64,000 nt of DNA from an uncultured Cohaesibacter sp. Lineage in GTDB: Bacteria > Pseudomonadota > Alphaproteobacteria > Rhizobiales > Cohaesibacteraceae. Under the pieces are notes generated by a model. It was not told the DNA's origin. It worked only from the letters and a program-made list of their open reading frames with translations, and did not search any database. The position numbers and the translations under genes are program-made. Below are positions 57,335-64,000 of the stretch, one piece after another (position 1 is the first letter of the stretch; the number at the start of each line of letters is the position of its first letter). The stretch is from NCBI RefSeq assembly GCF_963677725.1, contig NZ_OY782507.1, forward strand, positions 2,108,001 to 2,172,000, written 5' to 3'.

Positions 57335-58438
57335 TCAAATGATTTCGGTTCCGCTTATCTTCAGTCCGAAGCCTTCCAGCCCGACATAATGGCGTTCCTT
57401 TGAGCTGAGCAGGCGAATAGAGGATATTCCCAGTTCCTTGAGGATTTGCGCGCCCAGACCAATATCACGCCATTCTTCCTGACGGCCTTTTGCGGTTACG
57501 TGCTCCTCAGCTTCTGCAGCTTCCAGCCCGTCGCGCAGGCGCGTGGAGCTTTGAACGACACCCGGAGAGCCATCGCGAAGATAGACAAGGACACCTCGAT
57601 CCTCGCTGAACCGCTTGATGATGTCGTCAAGATTATCAGTCAACCCAAAGACATCGGACAGCACATTTTCCTGGTGCAATCGAACCGGAATATTCTCGCC
57701 ATCTCGAATATCACCAAAGACAAGAGCGAGATGCTCGACCTGATCATAGGGAGCGGTGAAGGTGACCGCCTGCGCTTCCCCATAGCGGGTGTCCATTGTG
57801 AAGGTTTCTTTTTTATCGATAAGGCGCTCGGTACGCTGCCGATAAGCAATCAGATCGGCAACTGAAATCATCTTCAAGCCATGCTCCTTGGCAAAGGCCG
57901 TGACTTCCGGACCACGCTTGACCGTGCCATTGTCATTGACCAGCTCGGACAAAACGCCAAACGGTTCTAGGCCAGCAAGATCACACAGATCAATGGCAGC
58001 TTCGGTGTGACCTGAACGGGTCAAAACCCCACCTTCCCTTGCGACCAGCGGGAAAACGTGACCCGGCTTGACGAAATCGACGGCCGCAGAGTTCGAATTT
58101 GCCAGAGCATGAACCGTCGCGCATCTTTCCTCGGCTGAAATACCCGTCGTCGTCCCATGTTTGTAATCCACCGACACAGTGAAGGCCGTCGAAAGAGGGG
58201 CATTGTTGTTTGCGACCATGGGGTCAAGATGCAGACGCGCTGCAGACTCCTTTTTCATGGGAGCGCAAATGATGCCTGAGGTATGGCGAACGAAAAAGGC
58301 CATTTGCTCTGGGGTTATCTTGGTAGCAGCGGCAATCAGATCACCCTCATTCTCGCGGTCATCATCGTCCATGACGACAACAATCTCACCTGCTTCAAAG
58401 GCCCGGATGGCTTCCGCAACTCGTTCCATATCGATCAT
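57335..58438 (-). CDS. ribB: 3,4-dihydroxy-2-butanone 4-phosphate synthase with degenerate GTP cyclohydrolase II domain (RibBX-like)
   Basis: A 367-residue protein. Residues 1-205 form an intact RibB domain: VVMDDDDRENEGDLI and HTEAAIDLCDLAG supply the Mg2+ and substrate ligands for the conversion of ribulose-5-phosphate. Residues 206-367 align with RibA, but where active RibA has three zinc Cys (ECLTGDVFGS...CDC) this one reads ENVLSDVFGLTDNLDDI, with no Cys, so cyclohydrolase activity is not expected. This RibBX-type form is common in Alphaproteobacteria. Start has GGAAGGG upstream. No FMN riboswitch is visible. Confidence 0.88.
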   Translation of the reverse strand: MIDMERVAEAIRAFEAGEIVVVMDDDDRENEGDLIAAATKITPEQMAFFVRHTSGIICAPMKKESAARLHLDPMVANNNAPLSTAFTVSVDYKHGTTTGISAEERCATVHALANSNSAAVDFVKPGHVFPLVAREGGVLTRSGHTEAAIDLCDLAGLEPFGVLSELVNDNGTVKRGPEVTAFAKEHGLKMISVADLIAYRQRTERLIDKKETFTMDTRYGEAQAVTFTAPYDQVEHLALVFGDIRDGENIPVRLHQENVLSDVFGLTDNLDDIIKRFSEDRGVLVYLRDGSPGVVQSSTRLRDGLEAAEAEEHVTAKGRQEEWRDIGLGAQILKELGISSIRLLSSKERHYVGLEGFGLKISGTEII

Positions 58439-58781
58439 GTCTTACCCTTCCCTGATGGCCCGACGGGTAGACACTTGCAGTCTCACATCAGGCACGATCC
58501 GTAACTCTGCCCTTTTTATAGATGTAAATTCAAAACGAAACAAAGCTATTCGAAGGAATTCTAAATAAAAATTCTCATATGAATACGAATTATTGCCGCG
58601 TGTTTTTGCTTGAAAATGAAAGGTCGGGTTGAATCTCGCTGGTTGCTGGATATTCGGACTGGAAGCAAAGTTCCGCGAGTACGGAAAACAAAAAGAGGTC
58701 ACAATTGCTTGTGGCCTCTCTCATCAAAGAATCCGATAAGGCTTGGACTGTCTCACTGCCAGCGCCTCGAAGCTGGCAGGA
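58439..58781. other. Spacer between ribB and the kinase/transketolase operon
   Basis: Holds the terminator listed at 58694-58719 and probably the ribB promoter in the AT-rich stretch 58505-58600. No FMN-aptamer consensus and no gene were seen. Confidence 0.45.
58694..58719 (-). terminator. Terminator of the SDR/SorC/kinase/transketolase operon
   Basis: AGAGG-t-CACAA / TTGTG-g-CCTCT: eleven positions with one T-G wobble and a 4-base loop. On the minus strand it is followed by a long T-rich tract. A strong rho-independent terminator 62 bp after the SDR stop. Confidence 0.9.
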
Positions 58782-59564
58782 TTACGACATGATCAATCCG
58801 CCATCGATATTGATCGTCTGGCCGGTTACATAGTCTGCATCCGCGCTGGCCAGAAATGCCACCGTGCCGGCGATATCCTTGCCGCTCCCGGCATATTTCA
58901 TCGGTATATTCTGGACCCATTCGGCAATCAGTTCACCCGGCTTGTAGTCACCAAGCATTTGGCCCCAGACCCGGTCATTGTAATCCCACATTTCGGTCTG
59001 GATGATGCCCGGGCAAATGGCATTGACCGTAATCTTCTCCAAGGCAACTTCTTTTGCCAGACTCTGGGTCAGGCCCATAACGGCAAATTTTGAAGCCGCA
59101 TAATGTGGTGTGTAGATGAAGCCTTCTCTTGCTTGGCCGGATGCGGTGTTGATCAACCGCCCCCCTTTGCCATGCTTGCGCATGCGTTTGATGGCTTCCT
59201 GACAACATAGAAAACAGCCGGTCGTGTTGACGGCAAGTGTCCGGTTCCATTCTTCCAGCGTCACATCCTCGAGCTTTGAGATGTAAATGATGCCAGCATT
59301 CTGAATGGAAATATTGACCTCGCCAAAGGCCTTTTCGGCTTCGTCATAGAGATTGGTGATCTGCTCTGGCTTGGTCACATCACAAACCACCGGAATTGCA
59401 TTTGCGCCAAGATCCGTGAGTTGGCCGGCCGCCTCGATGACCTGTTCTTCATAAGATGCAATGACGAGGTTAGCCCCTTCTTGAGCAAAGCGCTGCGCAA
59501 TCGCAAAGCCTATGCCCTTGTTGCCGCCAGTGACTACAACCGTCTGGCCGTTAAAGCGTTTCAT
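58782..59564 (-). CDS. Short-chain dehydrogenase/reductase, probable polyol or sugar dehydrogenase
   Basis: A 260-residue classical SDR. NAD motif TGGNKGIG (12-19), NAG at about 89, catalytic Ser142, Tyr155 and Lys159 in YAASK; C-terminal GQTINIDGGLIMS. Similar to sorbitol/xylitol and acetoin-type dehydrogenases. Two in-frame ATGs occur; the second at 59564 has six bases after GGAGG, while the first directly abuts it. Last gene of the operon. It may oxidise a polyol to the ketose that the adjacent FGGY kinase phosphorylates; substrate unknown. Confidence 0.88.
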   Translation of the reverse strand: MKRFNGQTVVVTGGNKGIGFAIAQRFAQEGANLVIASYEEQVIEAAGQLTDLGANAIPVVCDVTKPEQITNLYDEAEKAFGEVNISIQNAGIIYISKLEDVTLEEWNRTLAVNTTGCFLCCQEAIKRMRKHGKGGRLINTASGQAREGFIYTPHYAASKFAVMGLTQSLAKEVALEKITVNAICPGIIQTEMWDYNDRVWGQMLGDYKPGELIAEWVQNIPMKYAGSGKDIAGTVAFLASADADYVTGQTINIDGGLIMS

Positions 59565-59586
59565 CGTCATCCTCCTTGGAATATTG

Positions 59587-60549
59587 TCAGGTGCCCGGCC
59601 TGTCTGCCAAGCGTTGGGCGGTGAAGTTGTCTGTGATCAAGGTGCCAATGAAGCCCGATTTGAGGGCGCCAATGATGGCATCGGTTTTGGCACTTCCTCC
59701 CGCCAGAGCAACCACCCGCCTCACCTGTGCGAGATCTTCCAGCGGCATGCCGATGACGCGGTCATCGAGCGGCGTCTTGACGATCTTTCCATCCTCATCA
59801 AAGAATCGCAGGCTCATGTCTCCCACGGCTCCTGCTTCGGTCAGTTCGGTCAGTTCCTTGGGCGAGAAGACGTTGCCGGATCTTGCCAACATGGAGGATG
59901 GCTCGACGGCCCCGATCCCGACAATGGCAAGCGTGATTTTGCCGAACAGATCCATCGTTTCCCGAATATAGGTATCGCTCAGAAGGACGAGCTTGGCCTC
60001 ACGGGACTGGGCTACGCCGGGGGCTGACAGCAGCCGTGGCTCCGCTCCGGTCAGTCTTGCAAGGCGCGAGGTCAATTGCGTTGCGTGGGTCTGTACCGTC
60101 GGGTCTCCCATACCGCCAAGCGTTTGCACGACGAATTTTGCCTGTCCCTGCCGCATCGGGTGAATGTTCTCGACCATTTTAAGGATCGTTTCGCTCCAGC
60201 TGGCGACCCCGATGATTTCACCGCTTTGCAATGTGGTCTCAATCAAATGGGCTGCAGCTTCCCCAATCCTTGCCATGATTTGGGCAGGGCTATCCTCGGA
60301 CGTTTCGACAACAATCACCTCCTGCACCCCATATCTCGAACGCAGAATGGTTTCCAGTTCAGTGAAGGTGCCGGATGGAGAGACAATCGTCGTGCGAATG
60401 ATCCCTTCTTCCTGCGCCTTCTTGAGCATACGGGAAACCGTGGCTTGAGAGATGTGAAGGTGTTTTGCGATGTCAGCTTGTCTATGCCCATCTATGTGAT
60501 ACATTTGGGCAATCCGGGCGATCAATCTCAGTTCGTTTACGCGTGCCAA
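59587..60549 (-). CDS. SorC/DeoR-type sugar-binding transcriptional regulator
   Basis: About 320 residues. N-terminal helix-turn-helix (ELRLIARIAQMYHIDGHRQADIAKHLHISQATVSRMLKKAQEEGII), then the SorC sugar-phosphate-binding domain (GVASWSETILKMVENIHP and SPKELTELTEAGAVGDMSLRFFD). I choose TTG at 60549, nine bases after GGAG, because family members start ARVNELRLIA; a TTG at 60564 has no ribosome site. SorC proteins respond to phosphorylated polyols or ketoses. Located inside the operon, between the kinase and SDR genes, and preceded by a motif shared with the operon promoter. Confidence 0.88.
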   Translation of the reverse strand: MARVNELRLIARIAQMYHIDGHRQADIAKHLHISQATVSRMLKKAQEEGIIRTTIVSPSGTFTELETILRSRYGVQEVIVVETSEDSPAQIMARIGEAAAHLIETTLQSGEIIGVASWSETILKMVENIHPMRQGQAKFVVQTLGGMGDPTVQTHATQLTSRLARLTGAEPRLLSAPGVAQSREAKLVLLSDTYIRETMDLFGKITLAIVGIGAVEPSSMLARSGNVFSPKELTELTEAGAVGDMSLRFFDEDGKIVKTPLDDRVIGMPLEDLAQVRRVVALAGGSAKTDAIIGALKSGFIGTLITDNFTAQRLADRPGT

Positions 60550-60588
60550 GGGACGGAACTCCAATAAATAAAGCGGAAATTCATTCTA

Positions 60589-60603
60589 TTCCGAATATTT
60601 ATT
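60589..60603 (-). promoter_or_regulatory. AT-rich motif upstream of sorC-like gene, shared with operon promoter
   Basis: On the minus strand AATAAATATTCGGAA. Its first 11 bases (AATAAATATTC) are identical to 63875-63885 upstream of the first gene of the operon. It lies 40 bp before the regulator start, overlapping the end of the kinase gene region. Candidate binding site of the SorC regulator. Confidence 0.5.
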
Positions 60604-60606
60604 TAG

Positions 60607-62073
60607 TCAAAGCACCGTCCGTTTAATTGCTTCCCTCCACGCACTTATCGCCTCATTTCGCATATTTTTGTCAATGCTGGGCTTGATGACAGATCCGTGG
60701 TTGCCCAATGATGCAATGGCGTCGACACTGGGCCAGAACCCGGTCGCAAGCCCTGCAAGGTAGGCTGCGCCTTGGGCCGAGGCTTCCGTGCTTTCACCAA
60801 TGATCACCGAGTGGTCTATATAGTCGGCCACCATACCCATCAGGAAAGGATTGCGGCTCGGGCCGCCATCGACAAACAGCCGCCCGATGCCATTGCCGGA
60901 GTGCTTTTCAATGATTTCAAAGACATCCTGTACCTGAAAAGCCATGCTTTCGGCGGCTGCTCTTGCAATATGCGCCTTGCCCGCATTGAAGGACAAACCG
61001 CTTATGAGACCTCTTGCGGAAGCATTCCAATGGGGAGCGCCCAGTCCAACATGCGCGGGGACCAGCATCACCCCTTGGGTATCGTCCACAGTCTGGGCCA
61101 GTTCCAGAAGCGCGGTCACGTCTTTTTCATTCAGAATCTCTGCGACCCATGGGAGGATCGAGGCACTGACCAGAATATTGCCCTCAAATGCATAGGTCGG
61201 CTTGTCTTCCAAAGACCATGCAATCGTGGTGGTAATCCCGCGGGGTGGCACGATGAATTCCGGCATCGTCGTCATGACGGACGATCCGGTGCCAAAGGTC
61301 ACTTTCCCATCGCCCAAACCATAGGCGCCGTGACCAAACAGGGCCGCGTGCGAGTCTCCGATTGCGGATGCCACCGGGATCCCGTCTGGCACGCCCTTGA
61401 TACCGGCGGTATGGGTGAAAATATGGGAGGAATTTTCAACCTGCGGCAGCATACCGACCGGGACGCCAAACAGAGCACAAAGTTCTTCGTCCCAGCATCC
61501 CTTGGAGACATTGTATAGTTGCGTGCGCGCTGCATTGGATGCGTCGCAAGCATGGAGGCTGTGCCCGGACAGTTTCCAGATCAACCAGGAATCCACGGTG
61601 CCGACACATATGTCGGCTGCCATTTTCCCCTGACAATGGGCTTCTAGCAGCCAGCCAACTTTGGTTGCCGGGAACATCGGGTCAAGAGGCAACCCGGTGC
61701 GAGCAATCACCTTGTCCTCATGACCGGCTGCCTTGAGGGTCTCGCACGCTTTGGCCGTCCGTCTGCACTGCCAGGTGATAACAGGACCCAGGGGCTCACC
61801 ACTCTGTCTGTCCCACACGAGGATGGATTCCCGCTGATTGGAAATCCCGATCGCGACAATCTCAACATCGCCGTTTGCGGCTACAACACAAGACTGGATT
61901 GCCTTTCGGGTGCTTTCCCAAATCTGATTTGCGTCCTGCTCCACCCAACCGGGGTGCGGATGGCGGGTCTCAACTGGACATGATCCACGGCTGATAATCT
62001 CACCATCTTGGACAACAAGAATTGCCTTGCTGTTTGTTGTGCCTTCGTCAATGGCAAGGATAGCCCTGGTCAT
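60607..62073 (-). CDS. FGGY-family carbohydrate kinase (glycerol-kinase-like, substrate uncertain)
   Basis: A 488-residue kinase. ATP site DEGTTNSKAILV at the N-terminus; FGTGSSVMT and VDGGPSRNPFLMGMVADYI later. Overall closest to glycerol kinases (about 500 residues). The substrate Arg81-Glu82 and the Asp in GDSHAALFG are kept, but the position of the glycerol-contacting Tyr135 of E. coli GlpK (DPYFSATK) is Met133 here (DPMFPATK), which argues against glycerol. Strong AGGAGG site. Located between a split transketolase and a SorC regulator, so a ketose kinase is more likely. Confidence 0.85.
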   Translation of the reverse strand: MTRAILAIDEGTTNSKAILVVQDGEIISRGSCPVETRHPHPGWVEQDANQIWESTRKAIQSCVVAANGDVEIVAIGISNQRESILVWDRQSGEPLGPVITWQCRRTAKACETLKAAGHEDKVIARTGLPLDPMFPATKVGWLLEAHCQGKMAADICVGTVDSWLIWKLSGHSLHACDASNAARTQLYNVSKGCWDEELCALFGVPVGMLPQVENSSHIFTHTAGIKGVPDGIPVASAIGDSHAALFGHGAYGLGDGKVTFGTGSSVMTTMPEFIVPPRGITTTIAWSLEDKPTYAFEGNILVSASILPWVAEILNEKDVTALLELAQTVDDTQGVMLVPAHVGLGAPHWNASARGLISGLSFNAGKAHIARAAAESMAFQVQDVFEIIEKHSGNGIGRLFVDGGPSRNPFLMGMVADYIDHSVIIGESTEASAQGAAYLAGLATGFWPSVDAIASLGNHGSVIKPSIDKNMRNEAISAWREAIKRTVL

Positions 62074-62082
62074 GATTTCCTC

Positions 62083-63042
62083 CTAAGCCTTGGACTGCAG
62101 CAGCGTCTTGGCATGTTCAGCAATACCGTCTGGCGCCATACCAAATTCGTCCAGCAAAAAGTTGGCAGACCCGGTTGGAGGGAAGATACCGGGAAGCCCC
62201 AGCCGTTTCATTGGCACAGGATGGCTTTCCACCACTACCTCGGCGACTGCACTGCCAAGCCCACCGAAGATGGTGTGTTCTTCGCACGTCAATATCGCCC
62301 CGGTTTCCCTGGCTGCTTTTTGAATGGCTTCGACATCAATCGGACGTACGGTTGCCATGTTGAGAAGCCGCGCTGAAATCCCGTCCTTCTTTAGAAGATC
62401 TACCGCCATCATTGCCCGATGGGTCAAAACCCCGTTGGTGATGATGGTCAAATCCGCACCATCCGCCAGCATATTGGCCTTGCCCAACTCGAATGTGTGA
62501 CCGGCGGGGAGCAGGTCCGGCACGCCAACACGGCTAAGGCGCAAGAAGATCGGCCCTTGATATTGAACAGCAAAAGCGACCGCAGCGGCCGTCTCGATGG
62601 AATCGCACGGAGCAACAATCGGCATGTTGGGGATCGCACGAAGCCAAGCAAAATCTTCTGTTGAATGGTGCGTTGGACCCAATTCGCCATAGGCCATACC
62701 AGAGCTGATGCCAACGAGCTTCACATTGTTGTTCGAGTAAGCACAGTCCGCCTTGATCTGTTCGAGTGCCCGTCCGGTCAAAAAGCAGGCAGCCCCGCAC
62801 ACAAATGGGATCTTGCCGCCATTTGCAAGGCCAGCCCCAACGCCCACCATATTTTGCTCGGCAATGCCAACATTGATGAGGCGTTCAGGAAACTTGTCGC
62901 GAAAGCCATTGAGCTTCGAGGATCCGACCGAATCGTTGCAAACCGCGACGATGCTGTGATCCGTCTCGGCCATGGCTTCAAGGGTCTGGGTGAAGGCGTC
63001 ACGGCAATCGAAGAGTTTTGGTGCGGCATCTTGAACATTCAT
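62083..63042 (-). CDS. Transketolase, C-terminal subunit
   Basis: A 319-residue protein with the pyrimidine-binding and C-terminal transketolase domains. The conserved Glu lies in INVGIAEQNMVGVGAGLA, and ACEEHTIFGGLGSAVAE near the C-terminus marks the third domain. Together with the N-terminal subunit upstream it makes one transketolase. Its start overlaps the stop of the N subunit (ATGA), and the FGGY kinase gene follows after 9 bp. Confidence 0.92.
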   Translation of the reverse strand: MNVQDAAPKLFDCRDAFTQTLEAMAETDHSIVAVCNDSVGSSKLNGFRDKFPERLINVGIAEQNMVGVGAGLANGGKIPFVCGAACFLTGRALEQIKADCAYSNNNVKLVGISSGMAYGELGPTHHSTEDFAWLRAIPNMPIVAPCDSIETAAAVAFAVQYQGPIFLRLSRVGVPDLLPAGHTFELGKANMLADGADLTIITNGVLTHRAMMAVDLLKKDGISARLLNMATVRPIDVEAIQKAARETGAILTCEEHTIFGGLGSAVAEVVVESHPVPMKRLGLPGIFPPTGSANFLLDEFGMAPDGIAEHAKTLLQSKA

Positions 63043-63860
63043 AGTGCGGCCTCCTTCAGCTCGGCCATGGCTTGTTCATATTGTTCGGCGCTTGGTACTT
63101 TGTGATGCCAAGCGACATTGTCCGACATGAATGAAACGCCGTGGCCCTTATTTGTATGGGCAATGATGCATTTGGGACGATCCGGGTCGTGTGCTTCGGG
63201 AGCCAGGCTTGCACATATTTCGTCCATATTGTTACCGTCGATCTCCTCGACCTGCCAACCAAATGCTTTGAGCTTTGGAGGGAAAGGGGCGAGGTCGTTG
63301 GTGTCAGCCAACAAGGCCCCTTGCTGTAACCGATTGTGGTCGATGATGAGGGTCAAATTGTTCAACTTGAACTGGGCCGCGGCCATGATCGCCTCCCAGT
63401 TGCTGCCCTCCTGCATCTCGCCATCCCCGGTGATCACATACGTGCGCCAGTCCTCTTTGCTCAGTTTGGCTGCCTTGGCCATGCCAACCGCAACGGGAAG
63501 ACCGTGACCAAGAGGCCCGGTGTTGGTTTCCACCCCGGGAACCTTGTTCCGATTGGGATGACCGTTCAGTCTTGAATAAGGTTTGAGGAAGGTTGCGATC
63601 TCTTCCTTGGGCAGAAAGCCCCTTTGGGCCAAAGTGACATAGAGCGCACAAGCCGCATGACCTTTGGAGAGGATAAAGCGGTCGCGGGTGGGATCCTGAG
63701 GATCGTTGGGATTCACATTCAGAATGTGAAAATACAGTGCCGTCAACAGATCGATCACTGACAATTCACCTCCGATATGGCCTGCTCCAGCTTCATAAAC
63801 GGCCTCAAGATCGCGTCGGCGAATTTGGTTTGCTGTTCTGCGAAGTTCTGTAATGTCCAT
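63039..63860 (-). CDS. Transketolase, N-terminal subunit
   Basis: A 273-residue thiamine-diphosphate domain. The TPP motif runs GDGEMQEGSNWEAIMAAAQFKLNNLTLIIDHN (about 145-176), preceded by the phosphate and substrate His in RFILSKGHAACALY and PGVETNTGPLGHGLP. First gene of the operon, with AAGGA before ATG at 63860. Split transketolases of this kind occur in dedicated sugar catabolic operons (for example for apulose-4-phosphate) beside the housekeeping enzyme. Confidence 0.93.
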   Translation of the reverse strand: MDITELRRTANQIRRRDLEAVYEAGAGHIGGELSVIDLLTALYFHILNVNPNDPQDPTRDRFILSKGHAACALYVTLAQRGFLPKEEIATFLKPYSRLNGHPNRNKVPGVETNTGPLGHGLPVAVGMAKAAKLSKEDWRTYVITGDGEMQEGSNWEAIMAAAQFKLNNLTLIIDHNRLQQGALLADTNDLAPFPPKLKAFGWQVEEIDGNNMDEICASLAPEAHDPDRPKCIIAHTNKGHGVSFMSDNVAWHHKVPSAEQYEQAMAELKEAAL

Positions 63861-64000
63861 ATACCAAGTCCTTGAATAAATATTCTGACATAAATTAACA
63901 TACTATTTTGTGCGTCTGTCAAGTGAAAATATATGTCATAAGGACAAGTATGGCGGCTATGTCGAATTTCATTTGACATTATTTCTACTCTGAGATACAA
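63861..64000. promoter_or_regulatory. Promoter region of the transketolase/kinase operon
   Basis: AT-rich upstream region. The motif AATAAATATTCTGA at 63875-63888 shares 11 bases with a site upstream of the SorC gene. A candidate inverted repeat, TGACATAAATT and AATATATGTCA, spans about 63886-63938. The start of the neighbouring gene is beyond the window. Confidence 0.5.

Follow-up and report, generated by a model that had tools for sequence, protein, structure and literature searches.

A candidate D-apiose utilisation cluster in an uncultured Cohaesibacter, with a pair of short-chain dehydrogenases proposed in place of the sugar isomerase

Introduction

Which sugar or polyol is degraded by a bacterium that keeps a split transketolase, an FGGY-family kinase, a SorC-type regulator and a short-chain dehydrogenase/reductase (SDR) in a single operon? 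The question is raised by positions 58782-63860 of a stretch of 64,000 nucleotides from an uncultured Cohaesibacter sp. (hereafter, the window; G000:C1:2108001-2172000 of a 4.63-Mb genome). The initial annotation had seen here an undescribed sugar or polyol pathway comprising oxidation by the SDR, phosphorylation of a ketose and C2 transfer by a dedicated transketolase; it had discounted D-apulose catabolism for want of an isomerase or dehydrogenase and held pentitol catabolism to be equally possible. The enzymatic logic and the placement of the kinase are upheld by sequence comparison. The evidence favours, nevertheless, the route that had been discounted, with two SDRs, one of them outside the window, replacing the isomerase.

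With a probability of roughly 0.78, the locus is read here as serving D-apiose utilisation by the non-oxidative (transketolase) route, and is predicted to use an SDR pair in place of an aldose-ketose isomerase. The observations behind this reading are the gene content, the one-to-one relationship of both SDRs with a pair from Escherichia coli, the repeated exchange of the pair with two isomerases, the substrate pocket of the kinase, the residues of the SDR cofactor sites and the linkage between operator and regulator.

The non-oxidative pathway of D-apiose, including an apiose isomerase, was reportedly described by Carter et al. in 2018 in Nat Chem Biol. It is mentioned in the available parts of PMC13001218 and PMC6302742. 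The former describes E. coli SE15-like clusters (ECSF_RS02670 to RS02715) with two oxidoreductases, aplK, aptA and aptB and without the apiose isomerase gene apsI, their carriers including E. coli SE15 and the ST131 and ST14 lineages. Growth on D-apiose is seen in three E. coli strains and in E. fergusonii bearing the cluster but not in K-12, and according to the authors' hypothesis the two oxidoreductases stand in for the isomerase (PMC13001218). Since this replacement has already been proposed in the literature for Escherichia, "undescribed" was too strong a word: judged by its genes, the locus represents a known pathway, non-oxidative apiose catabolism, in a variant form that had previously been hypothesised. 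In the open-licence literature, most subscription papers lying outside the search, this was the sole paper found on isomerase-less apiose clusters, and none was found on the window's branch, the exchange pattern, the kinase pocket, the SDR cofactor signatures or the operator.

Organisation of the locus

The families of the five genes of the window were confirmed with Pfam and NCBIfam:

63039-63860, minus strand: transketolase N-half, AptA-like, thiamine-diphosphate-binding half, 273 aa (Pfam Transketolase_N)
62083-63042, minus strand: transketolase C-half, AptB-like, pyrimidine-binding and C-terminal half, 319 aa (Pfam Transket_pyr, Transketolase_C)
60607-62073, minus strand: FGGY kinase, proposed D-apulose kinase (AplK-like), 488 aa
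59587-60564, minus strand: SorC/DeoR-type sugar-binding regulator, proposed local regulator, 325 aa, TTG start (Pfam Sugar-bind)
58782-59570, minus strand: SDR1, predicted NADP(H)-type, proposed apiose reductase, 262 aa

The genes of the two transketolase halves, which overlap by 4 bp, are proposed to encode a D-apulose-4-phosphate transketolase. The same five-gene order is kept in Shinella, Agrobacterium and Sinorhizobium with protein identities of 55-74%, and thus the arrangement is not due to chance. A DNA search with the operon gave 110 matching records, including Rhizobiaceae plasmids, and in the best 20 of the 110 the match covers most of the query.

These five genes are half of a divergent locus. 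The initial annotation had pointed to the right of the operon as the place to look for a transporter, and extension in that direction did reveal one of the ribose-type ATP-binding cassette (ABC) class, together with a second SDR (SDR2), all divergent from the transketolase gene and outside the window (L004:6044-10436, equivalent to window positions 64043-68435; position x of L004 corresponds to window position x + 57999):

L004:6044-7027, divergent: ABC permease
L004:7024-8076, divergent: ribose-type binding protein
L004:8097-9608, divergent: ABC ATPase
L004:9621-10436, divergent: SDR2, NF004774 above cut-off

The divergent unit of transporter and SDR2 is also present in the Shinella, Agrobacterium and Sinorhizobium regions. 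In Sinorhizobium meliloti Rm41, SDR2 is followed by tpiA, tkt and fsa, as would be expected with dihydroxyacetone phosphate and xylulose 5-phosphate as products.

Relationship with the cluster of E. coli SE15

The SE15 cluster (L066) runs SDR, SDR, permease, ATPase, DUF2291 protein, binding protein, FGGY kinase and SorC regulator, with the transketolase halves as a separate unit. Both clusters have two SDRs, a ribose-type ABC transporter, an FGGY kinase, a SorC regulator, a split transketolase and the same operator sequence, and neither has an isomerase; they differ in gene order, in the DUF2291 protein, found in SE15 only, and in the bacterial group to which they belong.

The two SDRs, both belonging to one gene cluster, are related one-to-one to the E. 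coli pair: SDR1 is 58% identical to WP_001189480.1 of SE15, against 29-36% for the other SDRs compared, and SDR2 is 69% identical to the SE15 partner; over both SDRs, the remaining comparisons gave 27-36%. Identities to SE15 are 42% for the kinase, 49% for the transketolase N-half (aptA), 39% for the C-half (aptB), 41% for the regulator, 37% for the permease, 38% for the ATPase and 27% for the binding protein.

Exchange of the isomerase step among related clusters

Related loci were collected by several routes. Searches with the window's kinase gave L005 and L048-L065; the first of these searches returned 11 loci with one true relative (L005), and in the eight others compared (L009 and L015 stood outside the comparison) the kinase was the sole one of the genes sought. 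The transketolase N-half led to 75 loci (L078-L152) in samples of the class, order, phylum and genus. L016 and L017 were picked for the resemblance of their DNA to the entire operon, with SDR1 as part of it; for L067-L070, L074 and L077 the resemblance was to the regulator-transketolase DNA of E. coli. The paper supplied L066, and SDR2 itself led to L071 and L073. Altogether 106 loci were classified. Those with the transketolase pair and a nearby FGGY kinase were kept (83), and 23 lacking them were dropped, among these L149, L083, L126 and L151, the last two with a fucose-type gene. L072, a lone SDR2 relative from Phyllobacterium, L153 and L154 stand outside the classification.

The 83 loci comprise 48 with the SDR pair, 25 with a fucose-isomerase-type gene (PF02952, Rahnella query), seven with a xylose-isomerase-like TIM-barrel isomerase (PF01261, L141) and three with none of these within the stretch; no locus (0/83) bears two kinds. 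The pair is complete in 47 of the SDR-type loci, and in L067 SDR2 is accompanied by an SDR1 split across two open reading frames. The two isomerases are unrelated and belong to different Pfam families. The TIM-barrel enzymes of the seven loci (L141:6150-7157, L145, L130 and L093-L096) are 57-99% identical to that of L141.

For the three loci with none in the stretch, a fucose-type gene lies elsewhere in G583 (47%) and G913 (76%), and a TIM-type gene elsewhere in G1077 (85%). No SDR2 orthologue was found (best identity, 45%) in 33 genomes, namely 22 of fucose type, seven of TIM type, G583, G913, G1077 and G735, although in four of them 75 of 86-110 candidates were scored and SDR2 could be missed there. 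Conversely, 38 of the 40 SDR-type genomes gave no fucose-type gene at E <= 1e-30, and their TIM-type homologues reach at most 35% identity. As regards apsI, a search of the window's genome for the two isomerase types gave distant homologues only. In G750, four fucose-isomerase-type homologues (C9, C13, C22 and C33; 38-52%) exist beside an SDR-type cluster.

On a transketolase tree of 83 rows, built by a quick method and with 14 open forks, 11 changes of type are needed. Among 199 genomes of the order, SDR2 occurs in 15 (E <= 1e-70; 12 candidates scored per genome, so that misses are possible), and 13 of these 15 have the cluster, the exceptions being G087 and G105.

Both kinds of cluster are present within the genus, where the transketolase N-half was detected in 12 of 18 genomes (E <= 1e-70). 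G000, G599, G636, G668, G696 and G710 are of SDR type. The isomerase-type congeners G175, G084 and G197 (L048-L050) have kinases 69-73% identical to that of the window and transketolases with 76-77% (N-half) and 75-79% (C-half) identity, and the quick transketolase tree places L048 together with five loci of SDR type from the genus (support, 100). G682 and G770, also of isomerase type, have a more distant transketolase (49% and 47%). Finally, the transketolase halves of G735 (L083:8702-11760) are 77-78% identical to those of the window and lie beside a PfkB-family kinase; no FGGY kinase, SDRs or isomerase were found in that stretch. Replacement at one and the same chromosomal site within the genus was considered and is not borne out: comparison of the flanks with those of 12 congener loci matched ribBA only, in L049 and inverted.

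The FGGY kinase

The kinase is near glycerol kinase and falls under both curated GlpK cut-offs, with 470.5 against 590.35 bits and, as a near miss, 480.9 against 498; for the curated XylB family it scores 213.8 bits, the cut-off being 380.25. In a tree of 62 sequences (41 of the 83 cluster kinases, 19 GlpK-type sequences, XylB and LyxK), 40 of the 41 cluster kinases, including that of SE15, form one clade (support, 99) and the GlpK-type rows another (98).

The substrate pocket was compared between the 19 GlpK-type sequences and 81 of the cluster kinases (all but L112 and L152), at seven positions that contact glycerol in crystal structures of E. coli GlpK: R83, E84, W103, Y135, D245, Q246 and F270. 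In all 81, Y135 is replaced by M or L, Q246 by S and F270 by S, while Y, Q and F are kept in 19/19 GlpK-type sequences. D245 is conserved in 81/81 cluster kinases, and R83, E84 and W103 in 80/81 each. The window's kinase has M133, S241 and S265 at the three changed positions. The identical change in SDR-, fucose- and TIM-type clusters argues for one common substrate of a different shape. By its sequence, the kinase belongs to the AplK clade and not to GlpK, and the initial placement outside both xylulokinases and true glycerol kinases is borne out by the missed cut-offs, the separate clades and the pocket residues.

The SDR pair and the proposed pathway

The catalytic serine, tyrosine and lysine are present in both SDRs at 48/48 loci (S144/Y157/K161 in SDR1). 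According to the classical SDR rules, residues of the nucleotide-binding motif and of the end of strand 2 distinguish NADP(H) from NAD(H) binding. In SDR1, the residue preceding the second glycine of the motif is K or R in 48/48 loci, and strand 2 ends in S or A in 46 loci (D in the other two); SDR2 has serine before the second glycine and aspartate at the end of strand 2, each in 48/48. The signatures are thus opposite and nearly fixed, and SDR1 looks like an NADP(H)-type and SDR2 like an NAD(H)-type enzyme. In L056:10772-13689 (G198), a SorC copy stands on either side of SDR1, each 68% identical to the regulator of the window.

In the proposed pathway, whose enzyme activities are all predicted, D-apiose would be imported by the ribose-type ABC transporter and reduced to apiitol by one SDR, proposed to be SDR1 with NADPH, after which the other (SDR2, with NAD+) would oxidise C2 of apiitol to give apulose. 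Driven by NADPH in the first step and by NAD+ in the second, the conversion of apiose would be drawn towards apulose. The FGGY kinase would form apulose 4-phosphate, and the split transketolase would transfer its C1-C2 unit to glyceraldehyde 3-phosphate, yielding, by the known chemistry of transketolases, dihydroxyacetone phosphate and xylulose 5-phosphate. The locus would thus share kinase and split transketolase with the isomerase pathway of Carter et al., and differ from it in having SDR1 and SDR2 where that pathway has the isomerase. In fungi, xylose reductase and xylitol dehydrogenase likewise reduce an aldose and then oxidise the polyol to the ketose with opposite cofactor preferences; that route, however, involves other enzyme families and another sugar, and the present one is bacterial and exchanges with isomerases.

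The first step would correspond to D-apiose/D-apiitol oxidoreductase (EC 1.1.1.114; source, Aerobacter aerogenes), to which, as far as we know, no gene has been assigned so far. KEGG reaction R03577, as given in the available part of PMC1686944, converts D-apiose and NADH to D-apiitol. The listed cofactor differs from that predicted for SDR1, so that either SDR may be the reductase; SDR2 may, instead of SDR1, be the D-apiose/apiitol oxidoreductase. We incline, with somewhat better than even confidence, to a broader proposal: that bacteria have several times given up two unrelated sugar isomerases for an SDR pair of opposite cofactors, that apiose is isomerised via the free polyol at the price of one NADPH-to-NADH exchange per apiose, and that the pair includes the first gene for the D-apiose/apiitol oxidoreductase.

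Operator and regulator

Two candidate operators lie in the divergent promoter region:

63873-63886: TGAATAAATATTCT, differing from TGMATAWWTATKCA at one position, immediately 5' of the transketolase start
64017-64030 (genome 2172017-2172030), outside the window: TGMATAWWTATKCA, exact, beside the permease start

The SorC-type regulator, whose binding and inducer are predictions, would act on TGMATAWWTATKCA sites at both divergent promoters. The motif was obtained from 7-mers shared by 21/21 regions (20 shuffles gave no more than 6), an exact palindrome search of the promoter regions being too strict. Similar sites are common to the promoter regions of 31 SDR-type divergent loci, although their presence there is partly circular, the motif having been derived from these regions. 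The site beside the permease is the only exact one in the genome; six further places elsewhere have one mismatch, compared with one per strand for a control pattern.

Across the 83 loci, the 450 bp preceding the transketolase contain the site, with no more than one mismatch, in 58 of the 59 loci with a SorC gene (the exception being L071, from Deinococcus) and in 0 of the 24 without; the reversed pattern occurs in 1/83. Fisher p-values for this association and for the classification of the loci take no account of relatedness and carry no weight here. All 11 isomerase-type loci with SorC, which took no part in deriving the motif, have the site upstream of the transketolase. The presence of the site follows that of SorC, which indicates that regulator and operator travel together across cluster types.

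Alternative explanations

Several observations weigh against the reading as an apiose cluster. The kinase and transketolase are just 39-49% identical to those of E. coli and the transporter differs (binding protein, 27%), so that the imported substrate could differ and be, for example, apiitol. The SDR-type genomes G726 and G750 hold fucose-isomerase-type genes elsewhere, and the window's genome has distant isomerase homologues (best, 22% for the fucose type and 35% for the TIM type). In G087 (L153:988-11203) the SDR pair accompanies this type of transporter, and neither the transketolase nor an AplK-type kinase was found in the 20 kb of L153; hence, the pair is not exclusive to this route. 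The transketolase-bearing L149 (G974) has SDR1 (63%) without SDR2, and the kinase of L112 lies outside the cluster-kinase clade. Moreover, tpiA relatives occur at only four of the 83 loci, Rm41 included, and tkt at Rm41 alone. The E. coli phenotype, finally, is described in the available part of PMC13001218 at strain level and without gene deletions.

Two of these loci deserve a further remark. The SDR pair of L153 has a XylB-like FGGY kinase and a DRL-type oxidoreductase in its vicinity, and this locus may offer the same ketose a different route downstream. L149 also carries the transporter and a more distant FGGY kinase.

Import of apiitol or an apioside, with one SDR producing apulose, the other engaged in a side reaction and the kinase and transketolase acting as proposed, is an unlikely alternative. 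It would account for a transporter unlike those of E. coli and of the isomerase-type clusters (binding protein, 27%), and an NAD(H)-type SDR2 could by itself turn apiitol into apulose; yet, apart from the split SDR1 of L067, no single-SDR locus exists among the 83 (L149, with SDR1 alone, is outside them), and in Enterobacterales the SDR pair goes with the transporter type of isomerase clusters (L066 and L077 compared with L068 and L069), such strains growing on D-apiose according to the available part of PMC13001218. Slightly less probable still is that the substrate is some other branched or linear ketose or polyol, the likeness to apiose clusters reflecting shared ancestry only. The modest identity of kinase and transketolase to the E. 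coli proteins, and the joining of SDR pair and transporter to other enzymes in L153, would fit this; the identical pocket residues in 81/81 kinases across cluster types, the repeated exchange with isomerases and the operator in common speak against it.

An ordinary pentitol, glycerol or dihydroxyacetone pathway, in which an SDR oxidises the polyol, the FGGY kinase phosphorylates xylulose, ribulose or dihydroxyacetone and the transketolase feeds the pentose-phosphate pathway, is very improbable. GlpK is the nearest characterised family of the kinase, one of its cut-offs being narrowly missed, and the SDRs show similarity to acetoin reductases and polyol dehydrogenases. The kinase, however, forms a clade apart from GlpK with three substrate-pocket residues changed and is far from XylB, and a simple polyol route offers no explanation for the exchange with sugar isomerases. 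The kinase tree and the pocket residues led us to reject these pathways, and pentitol catabolism finds no support.

Neighbouring features

A terminator follows the operon:

58685-58719, minus strand: intrinsic terminator 3' of the SDR1 stop, stem 58719-58694, then a T-rich tract

The 126-nt terminator region folds with -44.8 kcal/mol (z = -3.64), equalled by 0 of 200 shuffles; the terminator is absent from the list of a simple terminator scan, probably owing to internal mismatches in the stem. Together with the open reading frame coordinates and the confirmed families, this fold bears out the earlier description of five minus-strand genes closed by a terminator.

Next to the operon lies a RibBA gene (3,4-dihydroxy-2-butanone-4-phosphate synthase; window 57335-58438), and RibB-type genes also occur at L017:25114-25755 and L073:19093-19725. 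A role of RibBA in the pathway was discarded, a RibB-type gene being present in the fetched stretch of only nine of the 83 loci (eight of SDR type and one of fucose type).

Significance

Apiose is a constituent of seagrass and duckweed cell walls (PMC8815203, available part) and of land-plant pectin (PMC6302742, available part). Clusters of this kind are annotated in records just as FGGY kinase, transketolase or SDR, and the kinase pocket, the SDR pair and the operator provide simple markers for recognising them. The proposal offers a testable answer to how bacteria without the isomerase, including the E. coli lineages described in the available part of PMC13001218, would use apiose, and puts forward two genes as candidates for the apiose/apiitol reaction. 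The recurrent swap between isomerase and redox pair would constitute a natural experiment on why a cell should spend NADPH on isomerising a sugar.

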